Source of the DNA: Candidatus Uhrbacteria bacterium | GTDB lineage: Bacteria; Patescibacteriota; Patescibacteriia; 2-12-FULL-60-25 | Direction: 5' to 3' | Assembly: GCA_018499965.2 (NCBI GenBank) | Contig: JAHBAS020000002.1 | Coordinates: forward strand, 1-64,000 | DNA: 64,000 nt | Shown here: piece after piece, positions 41,010-53,591 of the stretch | Numbering within the stretch: position 1 is the first letter of the stretch | How the letters are laid out: every line of letters starts with the position of its first letter | The notes under the pieces: model-generated | Databases searched by the model: none | What the model was told of the DNA's origin: nothing | Seen by the model: only the letters and a program-made list of their open reading frames with translations | Position numbers and translations under genes: made by a program

Positions 41010-41549
41010 TCAATTAACGTGATCCTCCAATGGATTATCACGTATGTACATGCGTACACCTTCCAGTTCGCGATAGGAACGAACGATTCGTTCATAATAA
41101 TTTCGTTGCCATTGAAAACAAATTTGAGATGAACATTCGTTTATTCGTCTGGATGAAAAAGATTTAATTGCACGAACGATTTCAGACAACGGAACCTCCT
41201 GCCTCGTAGGGGCGGGTCTGAGACCCGCCCCTACGGCCGACCCGCTGGTGCGTGGCACGATATTTTGTTTTCTTTTCTGATGCTTAATCAAAATCACAAC
41301 ATGCACATGGTTTGGCATGATGACGTATGAATCAATTGCAACTGAATGATAATGATTCGAAATGTCCGTGATGGCATTACGTACGATGATTCCTTGCGCA
41401 TTCAACGATACCCTACGACCAACAATCTCCCCGAATACCGTGCGACGATCTTTGGTGCATATTGTGACGAAATACCACCCTGGATCTGAATAGCAATGTG
41501 AAGGAACCCGAATAGATCGACGGTGATGCTGTTTTGGATCAAAAGCCAT
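41010..41549 (-). mobile_element. REP-associated tyrosine transposase (RAYT; IS200-like Y1/HUH)
   Basis: 'SDPGWYFVTICTKDRRTVFGEI', 'SYVIMPNHVHVVILI', 'YRELEGVRMYIRDNP'. Confidence 0.9.
41205..41235. repeat. Perfect palindrome inside the RAYT coding sequence
   Basis: CGTAGGGGCGGGTCT-G-AGACCCGCCCCTACG; translated as part of 'SAVGAGLRPAPTR'. Confidence 0.9.
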
Positions 41550-41605
41550 ATATCTATTCCGTCTCACGATATAAAGCATTCGTCAAAAAAGGCTTTACTA
41601 AGCCA

Positions 41606-41662
41606 TTTTAGCTAAAATAGACGCCAATACCCCTTGACAAAAGGACAAGTCTGTGTTACACT
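41606..41662 (+). promoter_or_regulatory. Sigma70-like promoter of the structured-RNA locus, with upstream palindrome
   Basis: TTTTAGCTAAAA (41606-41617); TTGACA (41634-41639), 17 bp, TACACT (41657-41662). Confidence 0.7.
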
Positions 41663-41688
41663 GGCGTCATAACAATCAAAGATTCTCT

Positions 41689-41795
41689 GGGGAGAGAGCC
41701 TGCGTAGCAAAGGTCATTGCTACATCTACAAAGTTCACTCTTTGTATTGGCGCGTACTCCCCCTGTCGAGTAGGCGTTTTTTCGTTCTTCGACAG
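41689..41795 (+). ncRNA. Structured 5' leader element
   Basis: GGGGAG (41689-41694)/CTCCCC (41757-41762) enclosing GTAGCAA-AGGTCA-TTGCTAC (41704-41723) and TACAAAG-TTCACT-CTTTGTA (41727-41746); then CTGTCGA/TCGACAG (41763-41769/41789-41795). Confidence 0.6.
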
Positions 41796-41956
41796 AGACC
41801 TAGGGAGGAGAGAGAACCGTGGTGGATACCCAACAGGGAATGCCATCCGGCGGGCGGAGTGTGAATCTGATTGGGACTCGTCTCGATCGCTTCCACGCGA
41901 AACCCACGGTGCGGACGTGGCTTGCCACTAACCCGTGCCACACTTCCCTAGATCTC
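41795..41956 (+). ncRNA. Putative structured RNA motif 1, copy A
   Basis: Closing helix 41795-41808/41943-41956; P3 41821-41848 with ATA internal loop and AACA loop; P4 GTGTG (41859-41863)/CACGC (41894-41898); P5 GATTGGGA-CTCG-TCTCGATC (41869-41888); P6 GGTGCGG (41908-41914)/CCGTGCC (41933-41939) with GTGG-CTTG-CCAC tip. Confidence 0.8.
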
Positions 41957-41995
41957 TGGATAAGAACACCTCGTTCATTGCACAAAGGATTCGTC

Positions 41996-42184
41996 ATGAC
42001 TACCTGGAAAATCATCTCTGTCGTTCTCGGCATCCTCTTTGGCATCATCAGCGTCCTCATGGTAATCCGCACACTCCGTGCAGATCGGCAACCTAGCCTC
42101 ATTAAGATCATCGGATGGGGCATGGTAGTAAACGTTCTGAACGTTTGCGTTGGAATGGCCTGCATGCACTTCGACCTCCCATGA
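41996..42184 (+). CDS. 62-aa two-TM small protein
   Basis: MTTWKIISVVLGILFGIISVLMVIRTLRADRQPSLIKIIGWGMVVNVLNVCVGMACMHFDLP; the track's start at 41819 lies within the RNA motif. Confidence 0.6.
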   Translation: MTTWKIISVVLGILFGIISVLMVIRTLRADRQPSLIKIIGWGMVVNVLNVCVGMACMHFDLP

Positions 42185-42191
42185 GGAGACC

Positions 42192-42283
42192 GTGCGGGGT
42201 AGAGATCACTCGATCCCTATCCCGCAACACACCCCAGTTCATCACTCGTTGATGACTTGAGGCGTGAGCAAAAAAAACCTCAC
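42192..42283 (+). ncRNA. Putative structured RNA motif 2, copy A
   Basis: GCGGGGTAGAGATC-ACTC-GATCCCTATCCCGC; CAGTTCATCA-CTCGT-TGATGACTTG; GTGAG...CTCAC. Confidence 0.7.
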
Positions 42284-42311
42284 ACGAACTTTACAACGCT
42301 TCGCACCGATT

Positions 42312-42473
42312 GATCTGGGGAGGAGAGAGAACCGTCGCTGATACTCAACAGAGGATTCAGCCCGGTTGGACCATATTGGAGGACGATTTGATTGGGATTC
42401 GTCTCGATCGCTTCACCTCCAGGCCCACGATGCTGGAACGGTTTACCGTCACCCAGCATCCCCTTCCTAGATC
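42312..42473 (+). ncRNA. Putative structured RNA motif 1, copy B
   Basis: GATCTGGGGAGG (42312-42323)/CCTTCCTAGATC (42462-42473); P3 GCTG-ATA-CTC-AACA-GAG-GATT-CAGC (42337-42361); P4 TTGGAGG/CCTCCAG (42376-42382/42416-42422); P5 GATTGGGA-TTCG-TCTCGATC (42390-42409); P6 GATGCTGG/CCAGCATC (42429-42436/42453-42460) with ACGG-TTTA-CCGT tip. Confidence 0.8.
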
Positions 42474-42518
42474 TATCGGCGCGAACAACTACACCATCGC
42501 GTTTGAGAAAGGATCGCC

Positions 42519-42773
42519 ATGGCAAATATCATCTGTCTGACACTTAGTGTTCTCGGCGTCATCGGGCTCATCTGGAGTTACTTCGGACCCTATCGGTCAT
42601 CGAGACAGGAGATGACGAGAATACTCGTCATGCACAAGAACGGCACGGATGTCGAGACAAAGGCGAAAAACGCAAGGAGCTACCTGGAAGCTCTTCTCCC
42701 AGTAACCGTCCTCTCGACATTTTTCGCCACATTCTGGATTGTTCCAGTCATCAACTGGCTTTCCAGCCTCTAA
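42519..42773 (+). CDS. 84-aa small membrane protein
   Basis: MANIICLTLSVLGVIGLIWSYFGPYRSSRQEM...LPVTVLSTFFATFWIVPVINWLSSL; two hydrophobic segments. Confidence 0.6.
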   Translation: MANIICLTLSVLGVIGLIWSYFGPYRSSRQEMTRILVMHKNGTDVETKAKNARSYLEALLPVTVLSTFFATFWIVPVINWLSSL

Positions 42774-42782
42774 CAACGCGTC

Positions 42783-42868
42783 GTGCGGGATAGAGATCAC
42801 TCGATTTCGACTCCCGCGCACACCTTAGCCCATCACCGAGTGATGATCTAAGGCGTGAGGAAACTCAC
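42783..42868 (+). ncRNA. Putative structured RNA motif 2, copy B
   Basis: GTGCGGGATAGAGATC-ACTC-GAT...TCCCGC; CCTTAGCCCATCA-CCGAG-TGATGATCTAAGG; GTGAG-GAAA-CTCAC. Confidence 0.7.
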
Positions 42869-43051
42869 AAGACTAGGAAAGAACTCCCCTTCTTTCCCAA
42901 TCCATCGATGAGAGTTATCATTTTTCCGCATCGCCCATCGATGACATTTGTTCCTTCATAAAAACCATTCACGCCGAAACACGTTTGGAGATCGCTTCTC
43001 CCCACATGCTTCGGCGCGAATCACAACCATCAGCGCGCCAAAAGGAGAACC

Positions 43052-43345
43052 ATGACTACCATGACCAAGCTGTTTCCGCTGCTCATCACGGAATCCAACA
43101 TCCTCGCTCTAGCGGCCACCTTCTTCATCATCATTATCGCAGTAAGCGTTATGAAAGGCCTCTGCGAGAGCAGCATCCACAAACAATGGAAGGCCGAAGG
43201 CGTCCGAATGAACCAACCGCTCATAACGCGGTATCAAGATACTCAGCTCGTATACTGGGCAACAATGATCTGCGTCATCATCCCGGCGCTTCATCAACTC
43301 GTGGCCTACGTCTTGACCACGGTCCCGCCGAATTGGCCGCACTGA
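43052..43345 (+). CDS. 97-aa small membrane protein
   Basis: AAAAGGAG upstream; MTTMTKLFPLLITESNILALAATFFIIIIAVSVMKGL...YWATMICVIIPALHQLVAYVLTTV. Confidence 0.65.
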   Translation: MTTMTKLFPLLITESNILALAATFFIIIIAVSVMKGLCESSIHKQWKAEGVRMNQPLITRYQDTQLVYWATMICVIIPALHQLVAYVLTTVPPNWPH

Positions 43346-43359
43346 TGCTTGATTGCTTA

Positions 43360-43434
43360 GGGAGGATGGAAGACGCTCGTCTTGCCATCCTCCCTTCCAC
43401 TCTTGATCGCATGAGCTAAAACTCACGCGATCAA
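43360..43434 (+). other. Two strong hairpins between small ORFs
   Basis: GGGAGGATGGAAGACG-CT-CGTCTTgCCATCCTCCC (43360-43394); TTGATCGCaTGAG-CTAAAA-CTCAcGCGATCAA (43403-43434). Confidence 0.75.
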
Positions 43435-43449
43435 ACCCTGGAGAACAGC

Positions 43450-43569
43450 ATGAAAACGATTCAAAAAATTCCGCGAAAATATCGCAAGCCCCTTCTCATT
43501 CTCGCCACTGGCTACGTTCTGCCGAACATCATTCAAGCCGCAACATTTTACCTGATGTTTGCAGGCTAA
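43450..43569 (+). CDS. 39-aa single-TM small protein (not in ORF track)
   Basis: MKTIQKIPRKYRKPLLILATGYVLPNIIQAATFYLMFAG*; CTGGAGAACAGC upstream. Confidence 0.5.
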   Translation: MKTIQKIPRKYRKPLLILATGYVLPNIIQAATFYLMFAG

Positions 43570-43673
43570 CGCCTAACCTTGACCCGCGGGAAGGAAATTC
43601 TTTCCTCCCGCACGATCCCGAACGCATCACTCCCCTGGTGCCTTCAGGATCGTCCCTTCCATGACGGATATTG

Positions 43674-43730
43674 CTTGACCTACTAGCTCGCTGCATAACG
43701 CCGAGCGACCCTAAAAAGGAGTAGGTCAAG
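43674..43730 (+). promoter_or_regulatory. RBS-proximal hairpin before the secreted-protein ORF
   Basis: CTTGACCTACT (43674-43684)/AGTAGGTCAAG (43720-43730) enclosing GCTCG/CGAGC; AAGGAG overlaps the 3' arm. Confidence 0.55.
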
Positions 43731-43742
43731 GAATCTTCAGGC

Positions 43743-44213
43743 ATGAAATACGGCCTTTCAACATTTCAACAACTTGTAGGAGGTATCGTGAGGAAACCCA
43801 TCTGTACGATTGCATTGAGCCTATTGCTCTTCACCACGGACGCGGCTTACGCAAAGCCACCAGCCTGTACGAGCGAATGTGTAAGAGTCACATTCGACAT
43901 CGAAGCGAAGAACCCACAGGGCGGAGGCACGGAGATCGTCATCTGGACGGCAGAAGGTGAAGAATATGCTTCACGACAATGTCCCACCTTCCACACCGGA
44001 AGCGCATGCATCCTCAAAGGATATTCGACGGGAGTGTTCTCGCAAGGAGAGGAGATCACCATCCAATCGAATCACATGTTCAAACCCGACTCCTGGAAAG
44101 TCTGGGACTGGGTCCGCTCCCCGATCGTGACGCGTCGCATCAAAATGGACGCCGGCACCTGGTCCTTGGATCAGGAAGGTCTCAAGACCAAAGTCACCGT
44201 GACGCGAATCTAG
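43743..44213 (+). CDS. Small secreted protein
   Basis: Signal peptide 'RKPICTIALSLLLFTTDAAYAKPP'; four Cys; 156 aa. Confidence 0.7.
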   Translation: MKYGLSTFQQLVGGIVRKPICTIALSLLLFTTDAAYAKPPACTSECVRVTFDIEAKNPQGGGTEIVIWTAEGEEYASRQCPTFHTGSACILKGYSTGVFSQGEEITIQSNHMFKPDSWKVWDWVRSPIVTRRIKMDAGTWSLDQEGLKTKVTVTRI

Positions 44214-44356
44214 TCACACACCCTTCTACACCCACAAACCGCACTTTCACGTGCACCTTTCACTCCTAGCGGAATCTGATTCACACCCAGATTTCGCGAA
44301 GACCCAAGTTCTTCATCGAAATGATAGAGAACTTAGGACTTCCATCAAACCGCAAG

Positions 44357-44447
44357 CCGCTTGATACAACTGCGTCATTCGTCTAGCCGATTCTCCCCAA
44401 TCGCCTAGAACACCAAACGAATGACGCGGTGGTATGAAGCGGTTTTT
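44357..44447 (+). terminator. Long terminator hairpin of the structured locus
   Basis: CCGCTTGATAC...GCGTCATTCGT-CTAGcCGATT-CTCCCC-AATCGcCTAG-...ACGAATGACGC...GTATGAAGCGG-TTTTT. Confidence 0.75.
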
Positions 44448-44451
44448 GTAT

Positions 44452-44665
44452 AGAACCCCTAAATCCCCTTGTCAGGGGACTTTGACGCGGTGCTAAAAAT
44501 TCCTTGCCGATCCCAAACCCACCCCTAACCCCTCCCTTCGGCAAGCCGAAAGGAGGAGAATTGTTTGAATGCGAATGCGCTAAAAACTCACCATTAAGAT
44601 TTACGTTATCTGGCATCCATTCAGTATCGCGCTCAAGTCCCCTGACAAGGGGATTTAGGGGTTCT
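44452..44665. repeat. Composite repeat bounded by perfect 31-bp inverted repeats (REP-like copies 3 and 4)
   Basis: AGAACCCCTAAATCCCCTTGTCAGGGGACTT (44452-44482) and its reverse complement (44635-44665); right copy continues to GCGCGAT. Confidence 0.9.
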
Positions 44666-47293: not shown

Positions 47294-48256
47294 CTACTCA
47301 CCCCACACACCCGTCATATATGACGTGGCATCCAGCGGATCCGCACCGTATGCGCTCGAAACCGAGTGATCAAATAATTCAAACGTCGTTTTTGGATGAA
47401 GCGCTTGCATGGCTACGAAAAGCGCGGCAACGGATTTTCCGCTATCGATAAATGCATCCGTCGCCTGAGCGATCGCAATGTCTTTTTCCTTCAACCAATG
47501 AAGCGTATCCACGTCATGTGCGAACGCTTCTCGTTCGGAAAGGTAATGACTCATGTCCGCGGAGATCAAAACAAATGTCTTTTCATCCCACAATCCCTCA
47601 ATCACTTTTGCCAATGCAGACACGCGATCCTTGGACATCTTACCGGAAAAAGCCAATGGAATAATCCTTGCCTCAGGATAGGCACGCGATACGAATGGCA
47701 CAATCGCACCAATGCCATGCTCACGTTCAAAGAGCACACCTCGCTCTTCCGTCACCAAAGGGTTTAAGAGTACGGTTTGTACGGCATCTTCATCGATCCG
47801 CACAAGACCTGCGTCCGTTTGATACGGCCGACGATGCGTACTCACATCCCCTCGTCCGCCCATAAAATGATCCGGAGCGATGATAACGAATCGCTCGATG
47901 TCCGGACGCGCCGCGCGAAGACGAACGAAGAAGTTCGCCAAAAGATCAGCGGCGAGCGCATGGTGATTCACGATTCCGGCAACAGGATGCTGACGGGATA
48001 CGCTCGACGCATACGCTTTCATGGCCCCGGACCATGCCCGATCTGCTTGAGTCGATTCGATAAAAACACTTGTATTGATCGGCGCATCAGCTACGGAAAA
48101 ATCCACTACAGCAGGCGAAGCGCCCAATGATTTTGAAGACTTCTCCTTTACCAACCCTTCTTTGCCTTGATATCTGCTCATGCCAATAGCGGCCGCTCCG
48201 AGGAGGGCCGCTATGACAATGCCAAGATACCAATGCCGTGTGGACATGCTACTCAA
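47294..48256 (-). CDS. MEMO1 / AmmeMemoRadiSam system protein B family, membrane anchored
   Basis: 'GIVNHHALAADLLANFFVRLRAARPDIERFVIIAPDHF', 'FVLISADMSHYL'. Confidence 0.85.
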   Translation of the reverse strand: MSSMSTRHWYLGIVIAALLGAAAIGMSRYQGKEGLVKEKSSKSLGASPAVVDFSVADAPINTSVFIESTQADRAWSGAMKAYASSVSRQHPVAGIVNHHALAADLLANFFVRLRAARPDIERFVIIAPDHFMGGRGDVSTHRRPYQTDAGLVRIDEDAVQTVLLNPLVTEERGVLFEREHGIGAIVPFVSRAYPEARIIPLAFSGKMSKDRVSALAKVIEGLWDEKTFVLISADMSHYLSEREAFAHDVDTLHWLKEKDIAIAQATDAFIDSGKSVAALFVAMQALHPKTTFELFDHSVSSAYGADPLDATSYMTGVWGE

Positions 48257-51200
48257 TCGTTATGCGCTGTTCATTCGAGAGCGCCGTGACGTCTGGGTGA
48301 TCCATATGTTGAATCACCGCAGGTTCCGCCGTATACGACCCACGCGCCGTAGGTTTAACGCGATAACGGATCGACTTCTCCTGCCACCCCTTACACAGCA
48401 CGAAGGTCGGACTCTCCGCCTCGAATGGCGAAACGTACCCTGCTGAATAATCACTGGCCCATGGATCCCATCCCGTCATGGCGGAAAAACCAGCTGGGAC
48501 ATGATCCTGGATCGTATAACATCCACCCGGAGCATCGCTTGCAAGTTCCGCTTTCAATTCCACGGTGATCGTTTTCCCACCATCCTTCAGTACATCCGAT
48601 GATGGCTTTCCGTCTTGGAGATACGTACGCGTAAGTTTGATACGAGCATCCGTTTGCGGCTTTGTCGCAACGCGCTTGAGATAGGTTAATTCTACCGGCC
48701 CGCTCACTTCAGCGATCTTGAAGGTACGAACTTCTCGTGCGATCAGGTCAACGCTTCGCGGCCATCCATCCGTTAACGCGATCTTTGTCTTCTTTCCATC
48801 CACCTCATACGTCACGCTCGCCTCCCCGCCGATCGCCGCCGGGACTGCGGCCTTCAAGAAGTCGATACGGGCAAGTGGCGTATACACATTTGAATACCAC
48901 ATATTTCTTACGGCATTCTGAAGAAGATTTGCCCGTGTATCACCGAGACGTATTGCGATCGCCGCAAGCTGTACCGTCGCTTCTTTATCTTCTTCATCCT
49001 TGTCGCTCACATCCGCCATCAATGCATCGTCCTTCGTTTCTTTTCCATCCAGGAATTCGTTCAGGAACGGGCGCGCAGCTTCCAAATCCCCGATCGCGAC
49101 CAATCCGCGCATAAGGGAAAGTTTTTCGCGCCATGTGAGATCCTTCAATGCCATAACGGAGCGAAGATCCAACAAGACCGGCTCGCCGATGGCTGCAAGA
49201 CCCGAAAGCGCTTCGATCTGCACTTCACGTGGCGCATTCGCCTGCGTGAGCTGATCACGGAAATACTGCGCAAGCTGCACGCGATCAAATCCTTCTGGGA
49301 AGGTGTAGGCAACGCGCGAAGAGAGCGCAACATCACTCGACGCATGGGGCAAGATCGCGATGCCTCCATCTGATTTCTGATAGTTCAAGAAGAGAGACGC
49401 ATCACCTTCGCTTACATCCTCACCGAAATAGTCACGGAGCAGCGTTCCAGCTAATCGCGATGCGACCAATCCTTCTATGCGCTGACTCCAACCCCAACGA
49501 AGACTATTGAGATCCTGGAGGTACTGCGCGCGGTTCTTCGGTACGAAAGAAATTCGAACGTCTGGCGCCGTGCCAATATCCAATGTCGTATCCGTCGTCA
49601 CATTCGTCTGCATGCCTTCATCGCGTTCAAATCGACTGGAAACGATCGTGACTTTCTTTTCTAGAGCATCCGTTCCTGAGGATGATTTCAATCGGATCGT
49701 CACGGCATGCGTTCCTGCCACGGGACGATCGATATCCACGAACACAGACTCCCCGGCTTTCGCTTTTACTTCTTTCGCCTTCATCTCCAACGTTGGGGCA
49801 TCGACGGTATACGTAATATCTTCACCCGTTTTCAATCCCACGCCATAGGCACGCAATTTCATCTTCGGGCGATCAGCCTCGAGGAACGTTTCCGGTACAA
49901 CGACATTCACGAATACTCGTTTTGTCACTTTGATCGATGAACGACCATTTCCAGCATAACGATCCGGAGACGCGGCTACGCCACTCACGCGCCACGTCGT
50001 GATATTGTCCGGAAGCTTGATTTTCACCTCACCTTCGCCGCTCGCATTCGTCGTGACGACCTCATACGCTGCCGTATCTTTAAAGTTCTTTCGGCTTGGT
50101 TCATTTCCACCCCCTCCGTATTCGCCGCCGCCTCCACCACTAAACACATCTTCGTCGCTCCGATGTGTCTTTGCGGAAAAGAGGATTCCGCTACTCACGG
50201 ATTGATAGAGGCTTCCAAGCGAATTCTCATCCACACTTCCATTTGCCACCTTGAAAAGTGCTTCATCGACCACCGCGATCGAAACGCGCGTATCCGACTT
50301 CGGCTTTCCGGCCTCGTCCTTCACTTTTACGCGAATCGTCGCTTCGCCTCCTGGCGAATACGTCTCATTATCCGTCGAAAGATCTATGGAGAGCTTTCGA
50401 TCTTCGGTGTTGTAGTAGACGCCAGTGGTGTATTCCCGGAATCCGCCTTTTCGGAAGGCGATCGCCTTCACGGAGACATTCGGGGCATAGGATTCTATGA
50501 ACGGAAATGTGATTGTCGGATCCGTGCTCGCCTTCGCATCCAAAATACCCATATGTGCCTTTACGTAGAGGTAGGTCGGTGAAGACGTTCGAGGCAAAAG
50601 CTGATCGTCATTCGTAAGACTCAGCGAAACGACTTCATTCGTGCGATACGTGTAGCTTTCGCGATGCGTTTCCGTAGGACCGAATGAAATGTACGTCGAT
50701 TCGTTTTCTGACTGACCTGAAACATCCGAAGAGCTGTTGTAATAGCAACTGCGACATGGGTACACCCATTGCTTCGTCACAGACCATCGTCCCTTCTCGT
50801 CTTTCGCATACATGACAACGGTATACGAACGGTCTTCTTTCGTTTGGAATGAGAAAGAAACGTTTCCTTTCACATCCGTTTTCCCTTCCAATGGAGCGCT
50901 CGCGACTTCACGCTCATCGTATCGATACGTTGGATAGGTCGTTTTCTCGATTTCATTATATCCCGTTCCGGTTTGTACCTTTTCCCACCAATGTTCTAAG
51001 ACGACTGCGCGAACCGAAAGATTTGAAATCGGCTTTCGCGACTCCTCTTCCTCAGATGGAAGCGTGACCCTATTCGCTCGAACGGAGACCGTTGCCTTGT
51101 CGCCATCGAAACGCGTATTCCAATCCGGTACGAGATTGATATCCGTATTCCATACGTACACCGAACTGTAATCCTGGATGTTCGACGTAGATTCGGATTC

Positions 51201-53591
51201 CGTTGGAGCAACGGCGACCGGGAAATACGTCGCAAATTGACAGTCCGCTTTTGGATTCTGTTCAATGTCACAATTCGGAACGTTCGTATCGAAAGTGAAC
51301 GATACCATACCATCGTCGTTCGTCGACTGCTTTAATTCGTTGATCGACAGTTCGAGATTCGACAGTGGCGTTCCGTCGAAAAATGCCGCGCGTGCCGTTC
51401 CGGTAATCTTCTCCCCGGCAAACACTTCGCTCACATCTGTTGCTGATTCGAGCGTATAATCCGGCTTGATGTAATTACGGATCTCAATGCTCTGCGAGCG
51501 GATCACGGTATCCCCGCGCTTCAGAACGAGTACATACCACTGCGCTCCCACGCTGTTCCATGAAAGATTCGCGCGGAAAAACCCTCGCTCATCCGGCGTG
51601 ACCGTTACATGTTCAAACGTTTTCACGTCACTACGATCCTCCGGACAGGACCATTCCGTACAGTTCTGCATAAGCGAAACCGTAACTGGTTCAAACGGCT
51701 TACGACCCGTCTCACGATCCTGGATGATACCGGAAAGCTCCGCCGTATCCGTTGGTCGATATAATGGACGATCGTAGTGGAGATATGCCACGGTCCGATC
51801 TGCCGGATCTTCGATATTCGATCCGTACCACCAAAACGACGACCGAAGATCCATAGAGTCCGACAATGGAAGCAACGTTCCGCTTGATCCTTCTCCGATG
51901 CTAAGAACAGTCGATGGATGTTCCGCATCCGTATTATCCACGGTTCGTGCGATAGCCGCTGATGTCTTCAATCGGGCAATACCATCCTTATCCGTCTTCG
52001 CGGTTTGCGATCCATCGGAAACCATCATGCCTTCGATCGGTCGATTCTCGGTTACGTGCATTGCCCACACAATCGACTGATCCTTGTCAGCGACCATGTA
52101 GACCGCCGTATTCGTGACGTTCAAGAATACCCAGCTTGAAACCGGATTCACGTCATCCGCACTCGTGAGTTTTAAGAGATAAAATCCTGCATTGATCGTG
52201 CTCGGCAACAACAAATGCTCTACCCAGCTCGTGGTCTGAATCGTCGACGTTGCCACGAATGCACGCTCTTTAGCATACGACGCTTCAAGCGTTCCGTATT
52301 CCCGTCCGGCACGGCTATACCATGGACGCTTCCCGTCTTCAGCAAGATACGAAGCTGCGCGTTCCCGGGAGAGAACGTATCCCTCGATATTCACCTGCGA
52401 AGGTTCGGTTGTTTTGCCATAGGTATACACCGGAATCCTCACCGCCTTTCCCGGCGCACTTGCGACAAACGGATACGAAGGATTGATCCAGTGATACTGC
52501 CGCTGTTCCACTTCAGCGCGCATCTTGCTCATGGTTTCAAATCGAATCACTTCGTCTTTCCCGAGCGTCACATCGGAATCTTTCATTCCCCAATCTTTGT
52601 TCCAGGTCGCAATGTACACCGTTCCGTACGCCAATGGCTGATCCGGAATGAATGTGATCGTTCGACCCTTTGTTTGAAATTTCCCCTTTACGTCCGGCTT
52701 GATGCTGAAATGCGCCGCCGGATCGCTCCATCGATCCATGCTCACCGTCACTTCGATCACCGTATTCACCGGAACCGTATTCGAAGCATCGGATGGAACC
52801 GAAGAGAGGACGCGGAACACATCTTTCGTCTGAATCGCCCAAGAGAAAGTCCGTGCCTGGAGTTCTCCGCCTTCGGCTTGAACGGCTGCGCGAAGCTCAA
52901 CGCGATACGCCGTACCTACTTCAAGCGGAGCGGCTGGAATCACACGGAATGTTTCTTGATCCACTTTCTCAACGCGAACCGCAAGGATCTTTGATTCATC
53001 ATCGCCAATAACTCGAGATGGCGCGATCACGATATGACGCGCAAGGTCATCGGCGGAAAGGTCGATTTTTGAATGAATGAGAAACGTCGTGCTCGTAGAC
53101 GCGCCGCCCACGTCTTCCGTTTCCGCCTGGAACGTAAACGCATCCGCGGCCATAGCTGCCGGGATAATCAGATCCGCGATGCGACGAGTGATGCCGCCCT
53201 GCGGATTTACCGTTACGCCACGCGGGAGCACGAGGGTAAAGATAATGATCGCAACAAAAGCCATTGCCCCAACAGGAGCGAGTGACATCTTCCATGAATG
53301 ACCGAGGCGACCCCACGCCTCTTTGAGACGCTGGGCGACCGATGGCCCCTTTGCCGCTTCTTTGAGAACGGCATTCGTTGATTTGATTTCTTCTGACTTG
53401 GACATAAGAATGGCCCGCTGTTTTGCCATGACATCGGAAGACATCTCCGACCCTTTGGCCTCAGACGAGCGCTGTAATGAATTCGATATCTCCTGTAACG
53501 AACCAAGCGCCGGATCATGACAGGTCCCGCCCTTCTTCAGGAGACGTTCGAGCTTCTTTGCCCGTTTTTCCTCAGCATTTCTCATAAACAT
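48249..53591 (-). CDS. Alpha-2-macroglobulin family protein with cytoplasmic N-terminal region
   Basis: MG-domain features ('HYDRPLYRPTDTAELSGIIQD', 'PDNITTWRVSGVAASPDRYAG'), 1780 aa; ~100-aa charged N-terminus then one TM ('APVGAMAFVAIIIFTLVLPRG'). Confidence 0.88.
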   Translation of the reverse strand: MFMRNAEEKRAKKLERLLKKGGTCHDPALGSLQEISNSLQRSSEAKGSEMSSDVMAKQRAILMSKSEEIKSTNAVLKEAAKGPSVAQRLKEAWGRLGHSWKMSLAPVGAMAFVAIIIFTLVLPRGVTVNPQGGITRRIADLIIPAAMAADAFTFQAETEDVGGASTSTTFLIHSKIDLSADDLARHIVIAPSRVIGDDESKILAVRVEKVDQETFRVIPAAPLEVGTAYRVELRAAVQAEGGELQARTFSWAIQTKDVFRVLSSVPSDASNTVPVNTVIEVTVSMDRWSDPAAHFSIKPDVKGKFQTKGRTITFIPDQPLAYGTVYIATWNKDWGMKDSDVTLGKDEVIRFETMSKMRAEVEQRQYHWINPSYPFVASAPGKAVRIPVYTYGKTTEPSQVNIEGYVLSRERAASYLAEDGKRPWYSRAGREYGTLEASYAKERAFVATSTIQTTSWVEHLLLPSTINAGFYLLKLTSADDVNPVSSWVFLNVTNTAVYMVADKDQSIVWAMHVTENRPIEGMMVSDGSQTAKTDKDGIARLKTSAAIARTVDNTDAEHPSTVLSIGEGSSGTLLPLSDSMDLRSSFWWYGSNIEDPADRTVAYLHYDRPLYRPTDTAELSGIIQDRETGRKPFEPVTVSLMQNCTEWSCPEDRSDVKTFEHVTVTPDERGFFRANLSWNSVGAQWYVLVLKRGDTVIRSQSIEIRNYIKPDYTLESATDVSEVFAGEKITGTARAAFFDGTPLSNLELSINELKQSTNDDGMVSFTFDTNVPNCDIEQNPKADCQFATYFPVAVAPTESESTSNIQDYSSVYVWNTDINLVPDWNTRFDGDKATVSVRANRVTLPSEEEESRKPISNLSVRAVVLEHWWEKVQTGTGYNEIEKTTYPTYRYDEREVASAPLEGKTDVKGNVSFSFQTKEDRSYTVVMYAKDEKGRWSVTKQWVYPCRSCYYNSSSDVSGQSENESTYISFGPTETHRESYTYRTNEVVSLSLTNDDQLLPRTSSPTYLYVKAHMGILDAKASTDPTITFPFIESYAPNVSVKAIAFRKGGFREYTTGVYYNTEDRKLSIDLSTDNETYSPGGEATIRVKVKDEAGKPKSDTRVSIAVVDEALFKVANGSVDENSLGSLYQSVSSGILFSAKTHRSDEDVFSGGGGGEYGGGGNEPSRKNFKDTAAYEVVTTNASGEGEVKIKLPDNITTWRVSGVAASPDRYAGNGRSSIKVTKRVFVNVVVPETFLEADRPKMKLRAYGVGLKTGEDITYTVDAPTLEMKAKEVKAKAGESVFVDIDRPVAGTHAVTIRLKSSSGTDALEKKVTIVSSRFERDEGMQTNVTTDTTLDIGTAPDVRISFVPKNRAQYLQDLNSLRWGWSQRIEGLVASRLAGTLLRDYFGEDVSEGDASLFLNYQKSDGGIAILPHASSDVALSSRVAYTFPEGFDRVQLAQYFRDQLTQANAPREVQIEALSGLAAIGEPVLLDLRSVMALKDLTWREKLSLMRGLVAIGDLEAARPFLNEFLDGKETKDDALMADVSDKDEEDKEATVQLAAIAIRLGDTRANLLQNAVRNMWYSNVYTPLARIDFLKAAVPAAIGGEASVTYEVDGKKTKIALTDGWPRSVDLIAREVRTFKIAEVSGPVELTYLKRVATKPQTDARIKLTRTYLQDGKPSSDVLKDGGKTITVELKAELASDAPGGCYTIQDHVPAGFSAMTGWDPWASDYSAGYVSPFEAESPTFVLCKGWQEKSIRYRVKPTARGSYTAEPAVIQHMDHPDVTALSNEQRITIE

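Follow-up and report, generated by a model that had tools for sequence, protein, structure and literature searches.

OLE RNA is known to associate with the membrane and to have protein partners (PMC12265935, PMC9723947), and ROOL and GOLLD are large, ornate RNAs of unknown function that are often found near transfer RNA (tRNA) islands (PMC12286853). The HK022 put RNA, a structured RNA placed right after its promoter, is a precedent for antitermination by RNA only (PMC9378689). Here we describe a locus of approximately 2.8 kb (41634-44447, + strand) within a 64,000-nucleotide (nt) stretch of DNA, referred to as the window, from a Candidatus Uhrbacteria bacterium (contig JAHBAS020000002.1, positions 1 to 64,000; contig C21 in this work), whose genome is 1.1 Mb and 94% complete. 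Among named organisms, the nearest relatives of its proS are from Candidatus Uhrbacteria and other Patescibacteria, names that make membership in the ABY1 group probable. A preliminary description of this sequence had proposed an RNA-centred system, comprising either tandem aptamers or regulators, or a structural RNA with small membrane partners. From the present analysis we consider it reasonably probable that this locus is the source of a structured noncoding RNA (ncRNA) of a new class, the tandem modules of which would act in trans with the small proteins carried as cargo; the earlier interpretation as a whole was partly supported.

OLE, ROOL, and GOLLD appear to be the closest to this RNA in spirit (PMC12286853, PMC9723947), but those of their defining features that were tested were not found in it. 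As with OLE, it is a lineage-restricted, elaborate bacterial ncRNA of obscure function. OLE, however, is ~600 nt in length and belongs to Gram-positive bacteria, whereas the window RNA is made up of tandem 160-nt four-way-junction modules, has no OLE match in Rfam scans, and is accompanied by proteins that are not conserved and have no family match. The likeness to ROOL (~660 nt) and GOLLD (>800 nt) lies in a tRNA-like element that follows the RNA in five relatives, but these are prophage or phage RNAs with other folds, whose consensus structures were not recovered here with Rfam, while the new RNA is chromosomal, lies beside rpoB in relatives and has no match among phages or in IMG/VR. It shares with the HK022 put RNA its position after a promoter (PMC9378689) and differs from it in architecture and in occurring also as promoter-RNA-terminator units with no downstream open reading frame (ORF). 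Tandem riboswitches likewise present one structured element twice, 5' of genes, but here each copy precedes a different, non-homologous ORF and there is no Rfam match; with neighbors that vary and units that lack ORFs, the consistent position upstream of a regulated gene that marks a riboswitch or cis-acting leader was not found.

Scans with Rfam 15 at permissive thresholds gave no match above the gathering threshold over the RNA in the window or in three related loci (L039, L053, L050), and chance-level hits alone elsewhere. There was no match to the locus in IMG/VR or in phage and plasmid collections, on which basis a phage or plasmid origin was rejected, and no paper describing this RNA was found in the open-access literature. 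The preliminary description had named a lack of homologous loci, or a known phage or Rfam element accounting for all parts, as grounds for its dismissal; homologous loci were found, and the locus is not explained by any match to a phage, a plasmid or Rfam. Structured bacterial RNAs of such size and conservation are rare, and each has opened new biology.

Fold and covariation of the four-way-junction RNA

The recurring tandem hairpins that had been noted in the locus are real and belong to four families of direct repeats (D1-D4), which connect its spacers. Repeats D2 and D4 both fall within a single longer unit, a fold of ~160 nt (module length ~155-165 nt) that is present twice, as copy A (41797..41955, +) and copy B (42312..42474, +). 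Both copies share a predicted fold built round a four-way junction, with P1 as its long closing stem and P2, P3, and P4 as its three arms; the folding z-scores against dinucleotide shuffles are -3.5 for copy A and -7.1 for copy B. Two more copies with like predicted folds are present in a genome of the same genus (G002), and with these four copies compensatory changes were already seen at 17 pairs. In an alignment of 11 copies, 93.6% of the paired cells were standard and changes on both sides occurred at 34 of 43 pairs, a result reached by none of 500 shuffles, while pairing dropped below 50% once the partners were slid as a control. In a larger alignment of 58 copies, of which 56 had played no part in model building, 91.6% of the paired cells were intact (again reached by 0 of 500 shuffles), double-change cells numbered 788 versus 242 in shuffles, and slid controls were at most 43.4% paired. 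Covariation was present in all ten helices of this alignment, which contains one antisense match that leaves the picture unchanged. The features that define the class, namely the P1-P4 four-way junction and compensatory changes in every helix, were therefore found, and a chance structure was rejected on the basis of the shuffles and the covariation.

Cells with G.U were far more frequent than those with A.C (210 vs. 71 in alignment A9, 46 vs. 9 in alignment A8), and therefore the molecule that functions is RNA from the + strand and not a hairpin in DNA. Sequence signatures of the module are a conserved purine strand, GGAGGAG (GGnGGAG as the P1 signature), a P3 tip of the form GG-N-UUCG-N'-CU, where a G.U and a G-C pair that hardly vary lie below a loop mostly of UUCG type, and a UUCG-type loop in P4. 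Pairing of the purine strand (GGAGGAGAGAG) with CUCUCUCC near the 3' ends of the transcripts was suggested by some loci; this reached p≤0.05 in 4 of 46 and was unsupported overall.

Distribution, genomic setting, and ORF-free units

Two covariance models were used, R1 with four copies and R2 with eleven. Copy pairs were matched by R1 in all four genomes of the window's genus and in two further genera, and R2 matched 33 of 41 family genomes (18 of 21 genera) as well as several other families of the same class. None was found outside the class, all eight matching genomes in a phylum-wide sample of 380 being within it. From this distribution the RNA looks like a lineage-wide functional RNA, and its presence in so many genomes of tiny, mostly uncultured Patescibacteria with very few genes argues for an important role. 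The proposal of an RNA-centred locus with a tandem structural RNA is thus strongly supported, the RNA being conserved across many genera and ORF-less in another family.

Genomes generally have a single locus, in which a strong promoter is directly followed by, as a rule, two (1-3) tandem copies, and at least two same-strand copies were present at 26 of 30 and 10 of 19 loci in two unfiltered scans. In the 450 nt that precede the first RNA, a promoter match of at least 10/12 was found at 34 of 47 loci (3.7 expected) and a match of 11/12 at 26 of 47 (0.1 expected), most loci having a near-consensus sigma-70 promoter with exactly 17-nt spacing. In some loci the promoter is just 60-75 nt upstream, so that the transcript there has the RNA near its 5' end.

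In 26 family genomes the RNA adjoins rpoB, divergently and at a distance of 0.5-1.7 kb, with one additional partial case and two in other families (one of these 2.0 kb away). The opposite side of many of these loci carries a RodZ-like gene, ftsK, and recA, and the identities of all four flanking genes were verified in locus L117. This position beside rpoB indicates vertical inheritance of the RNA locus. The locus has been relocated in the window's genus, where it comes after truB. The RNA model had no match in 32 neighborhoods of proS homologs in named genomes, as expected if the proS-side site is peculiar to the window's genus. The stable chromosomal site beside rpoB bears on the idea of a domesticated mobile, viral or satellite element, in which the structured RNA would be a replication or packaging signal. 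Such an origin would suit the heavily structured transcript, the fast-evolving proteins, all of them orphans, and the tRNA-like cloverleaf of five relatives, but it conflicts with that site, with PHROG matches that are marginal at best, with the negative results for the viral and plasmid collections and with the existence of the RNA without proteins in one family, and we hold it to be quite improbable.

The slot of a housekeeping RNA is open in these genomes. The small and large signal recognition particle (SRP) RNA models and the 6S RNA model gave no match in the 41 family genomes, though controls were detected; both RNAs are either lost or very diverged. A divergent housekeeping RNA overlooked by Rfam is nevertheless the least probable of the explanations weighed, as the transfer-messenger RNA (tmRNA) model matched in all 41 (the full-length tmRNA of G000 is on another contig), the four-way junction shows by eye neither the SRP domain IV signature nor the 6S bubble, and the RNA, with its two unequal copies, gave no match in other classes.

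Units without any intervening ORF were identified in four genomes of another family (G200, G216, G230, G182), where a promoter is followed by one or two RNA copies and a terminator or T-run. The first copy in G002 similarly has its own promoter (TTGACA-17-TATAAA) and a terminator hairpin with T7 immediately after the RNA. These arrangements suggest that the RNA is most simply, and most likely, an independent noncoding RNA, to which ORFs were added in other lineages. A concrete covariance model is now available for it, as are stand-alone versions open to direct expression and probing.

The main alternative is that of a cis-acting 5' leader, in the form of an attenuator, of tandem aptamers or of processive antitermination as by put, through which RNA polymerase would pass the many hairpins downstream and the ORFs would be expressed. 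Leaders of these loci do contain terminator-like hairpins with T-runs, and HK022 put provides the RNA-only precedent (PMC9378689). These leader terminators are upstream of the RNA, though, and so beyond its possible action, the downstream gene is inconsistent across families, and in the stand-alone units the terminator is right behind the RNA. The tandem aptamers or regulators of the preliminary description have become less likely with the finding of promoter-RNA-terminator units, and we regard a cis-acting leader as rather unlikely. Several points nonetheless weigh against a trans-acting RNA with protein cargo. The RNA directly follows the promoter and precedes same-strand ORFs in most genomes, and in three of the ORF-free cases the terminator is followed by glyS, so that a cis role is possible. 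Eight of the 41 family genomes are without a match, whether through divergence, incomplete bins or loss. Both covariation alignments were fitted to the model, which favors the structure, and E-values are rough; we argue that this fitting does not explain the covariation signal, given both kinds of control, slid and shuffled, and the lack of matches outside the class. That the RNA acts in trans, has a partner and carries the ORFs as cargo is, in turn, what we infer.

Orphan proteins and a proposed role for the RNA

The five ORFs reported for the window locus (62, 84, 97, 39, and 156 amino acids) are present and look coding, with codon scores that favor the given frame (z 2.5-5.0 vs. shuffles). 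The coding fraction of the unit, 47%, agrees with its description as about half non-coding. Transmembrane (TM) segments had been claimed for the four smallest; strong TM-like segments were found in the 62-, 84-, and 97-amino-acid ORFs, while the 39-amino-acid ORF was below the usual threshold. The last ORF does have a signal-peptide-like N-terminus. Searches of Pfam, PHROGs, NCBIfam, PADLOC, and PDB sequences with the ORFs of the family loci, those of the window included, were negative or gave marginal scores at best, and the RNA flags a stretch of orphan proteins in which automatic annotation would show nothing.

Orphan ORFs are found downstream of the RNA in family loci generally. In the window's genus they are small and mostly hydrophobic, with no alignment between species except for one G001/G003 pair seen by eye. 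In genus g13, G015 and G031 share three homologous small ORFs as well as the large one, at a ratio of nonsynonymous to synonymous substitution rates (dN/dS) of 0.2-0.3, and therefore the ORFs are real genes, at least in that genus. The last gene of many rpoB-linked loci encodes a soluble-looking orphan protein of 300-650 amino acids, belonging to a single, diverged superfamily (subgroups linked by hhalign at 4.7e-8 and 2e-5) that is present in L106, L108, L112, L117, L121, L061, and others, has no database match, and carries acidic or proline-rich C-terminal tails in several members.

These observations are relevant to the small membrane partners of the preliminary description, and to an OLE-like membrane ribonucleoprotein (RNP) in which the RNA would work with small membrane proteins encoded between its copies. 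The TM-like segments of the window ORFs and the hydrophobic small ORFs of G002 would fit such a complex. From one species of the genus to another, however, the ORFs are unconserved; relatives with the locus at rpoB have for the most part the different, larger orphan family, and one family has no ORFs at all. The claim of membrane partners was therefore not borne out, and an OLE-like RNP is improbable.

For the trans-acting RNA with protein cargo, a mechanism can be proposed. Because of the long P1, each tandem module would fold independently, and the modules would act in trans as a stable RNA or as an RNP particle, with the conserved P3 tip and purine junction strand as the putative places where a conserved cellular partner makes contact. 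The transcript of the window's lineage would then have gained small, fast-evolving proteins of membrane or secreted type, each insulated by hairpins and co-expressed as cargo, not as parts of the RNA machine. Tentatively, and with less confidence, this could be widened to a structural RNA of Patescibacteria, abundant and spread over the whole class, with one locus per genome, in which the modules, like beads on a string, would join a core cellular partner in a particle of RNA or RNP, the transcript of the window's lineage carrying the fast-evolving small membrane or secreted proteins in addition.

Layout of the window locus and neighboring features

The predicted sigma-70 promoter (TTGACA-17-TACACT; 41634..41662, +) is present, with TG preceding its second hexamer and its position conserved in relatives. 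It is followed by a structured leader (41663..41796, +) holding GGGGAGAGAG, within which a terminator-like hairpin (CGCGTACTC/GAGTAGGCG) with CUCCCC on its loop side is followed by T6 (41751-41782, +). This hairpin is a possible attenuator, and because of it the transcript may be attenuated in the leader. By eye, a comparable leader with compensatory changes was read in the G002 locus (L039, ~5950-5830), and similar leaders in another family. Just upstream of that G002 locus, a masked run of N lies between short repeats (GCCCGATGCC; L039, 6562-6463).

Copy A of the RNA is followed by the 62-amino-acid ORF (41996..42184, +; two TM-like segments) and by the first copy of a two-hairpin module formed by repeat D1 (42191..42272, +). 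After copy B come the 84-amino-acid ORF (42519..42773, +), also with two TM-like segments, and the second copy of the two-hairpin module (42782..42863, +; 73% identity to the first). The structured spacer that follows (42864..43030, +) includes a short third copy of repeat D3 and is possibly a decayed third copy of the RNA, which the covariance model did not detect. The remainder of the unit comprises the 97-amino-acid ORF (43052..43345, +; two TM-like segments), two strong hairpins (43359..43440, +), the weakly hydrophobic 39-amino-acid ORF (43450..43569, +), a strong hairpin set (43585..43735, +) and the 156-amino-acid ORF (43743..44213, +); strong hairpins come in pairs within the spacers between ORFs. 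The strong intrinsic terminator that had been predicted (44354..44447, +) was recovered as a long hairpin with a sub-hairpin, its inverted repeat of 29 nt (44354-44382/44417-44445) being 86% paired and followed by T5. Loop-loop pairing between GGGG of the leader and CCCC of the terminator sub-hairpin was seen by eye in a few species and is not claimed.

The tRNA-like element of the five relatives is a cloverleaf with a long variable arm located after the RNA copies (L050, 8045-8138; L053, 8009-8103; L039, 3694-3788, - strand; L051, 6383-6473; L061, 5704-5810). Its 'anticodon' arm is of 4 bp, and it also has a T-arm and a hairpin in the variable arm. The arm GCCCUAYCCAYGGGCC, with a 7-nt loop UAYCCAY that lacks U33, is conserved in four of the five elements, and three of them end in CCA. 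A real tRNA was rejected, as ARAGORN made no call and the best Rfam score was a sub-threshold tRNA-Sec match of 17.4 bits. The conserved motif is absent from the window, and matches with three mismatches in G029 and G013 were judged to be due to chance.

Right behind the terminator, at 44452-44665, inverted-repeat arms of 46 nt (87% complementary, 122 nt apart) resemble a miniature inverted-repeat transposable element. Immediately upstream of the locus, a divergent gene (41010-41579, -) matches Pfam Y1_Tnp (6.6e-11) and, at 62.7 bits against a cut-off of 80, the NCBIfam family NF047646 of REP-associated tyrosine transposases; the window locus may have arrived with, or beside, a mobile element. 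Further along the window, 48249-53591 (-) encodes a secreted-looking protein of 1780 amino acids that, by impression from its sequence, resembles alpha-2-macroglobulin.

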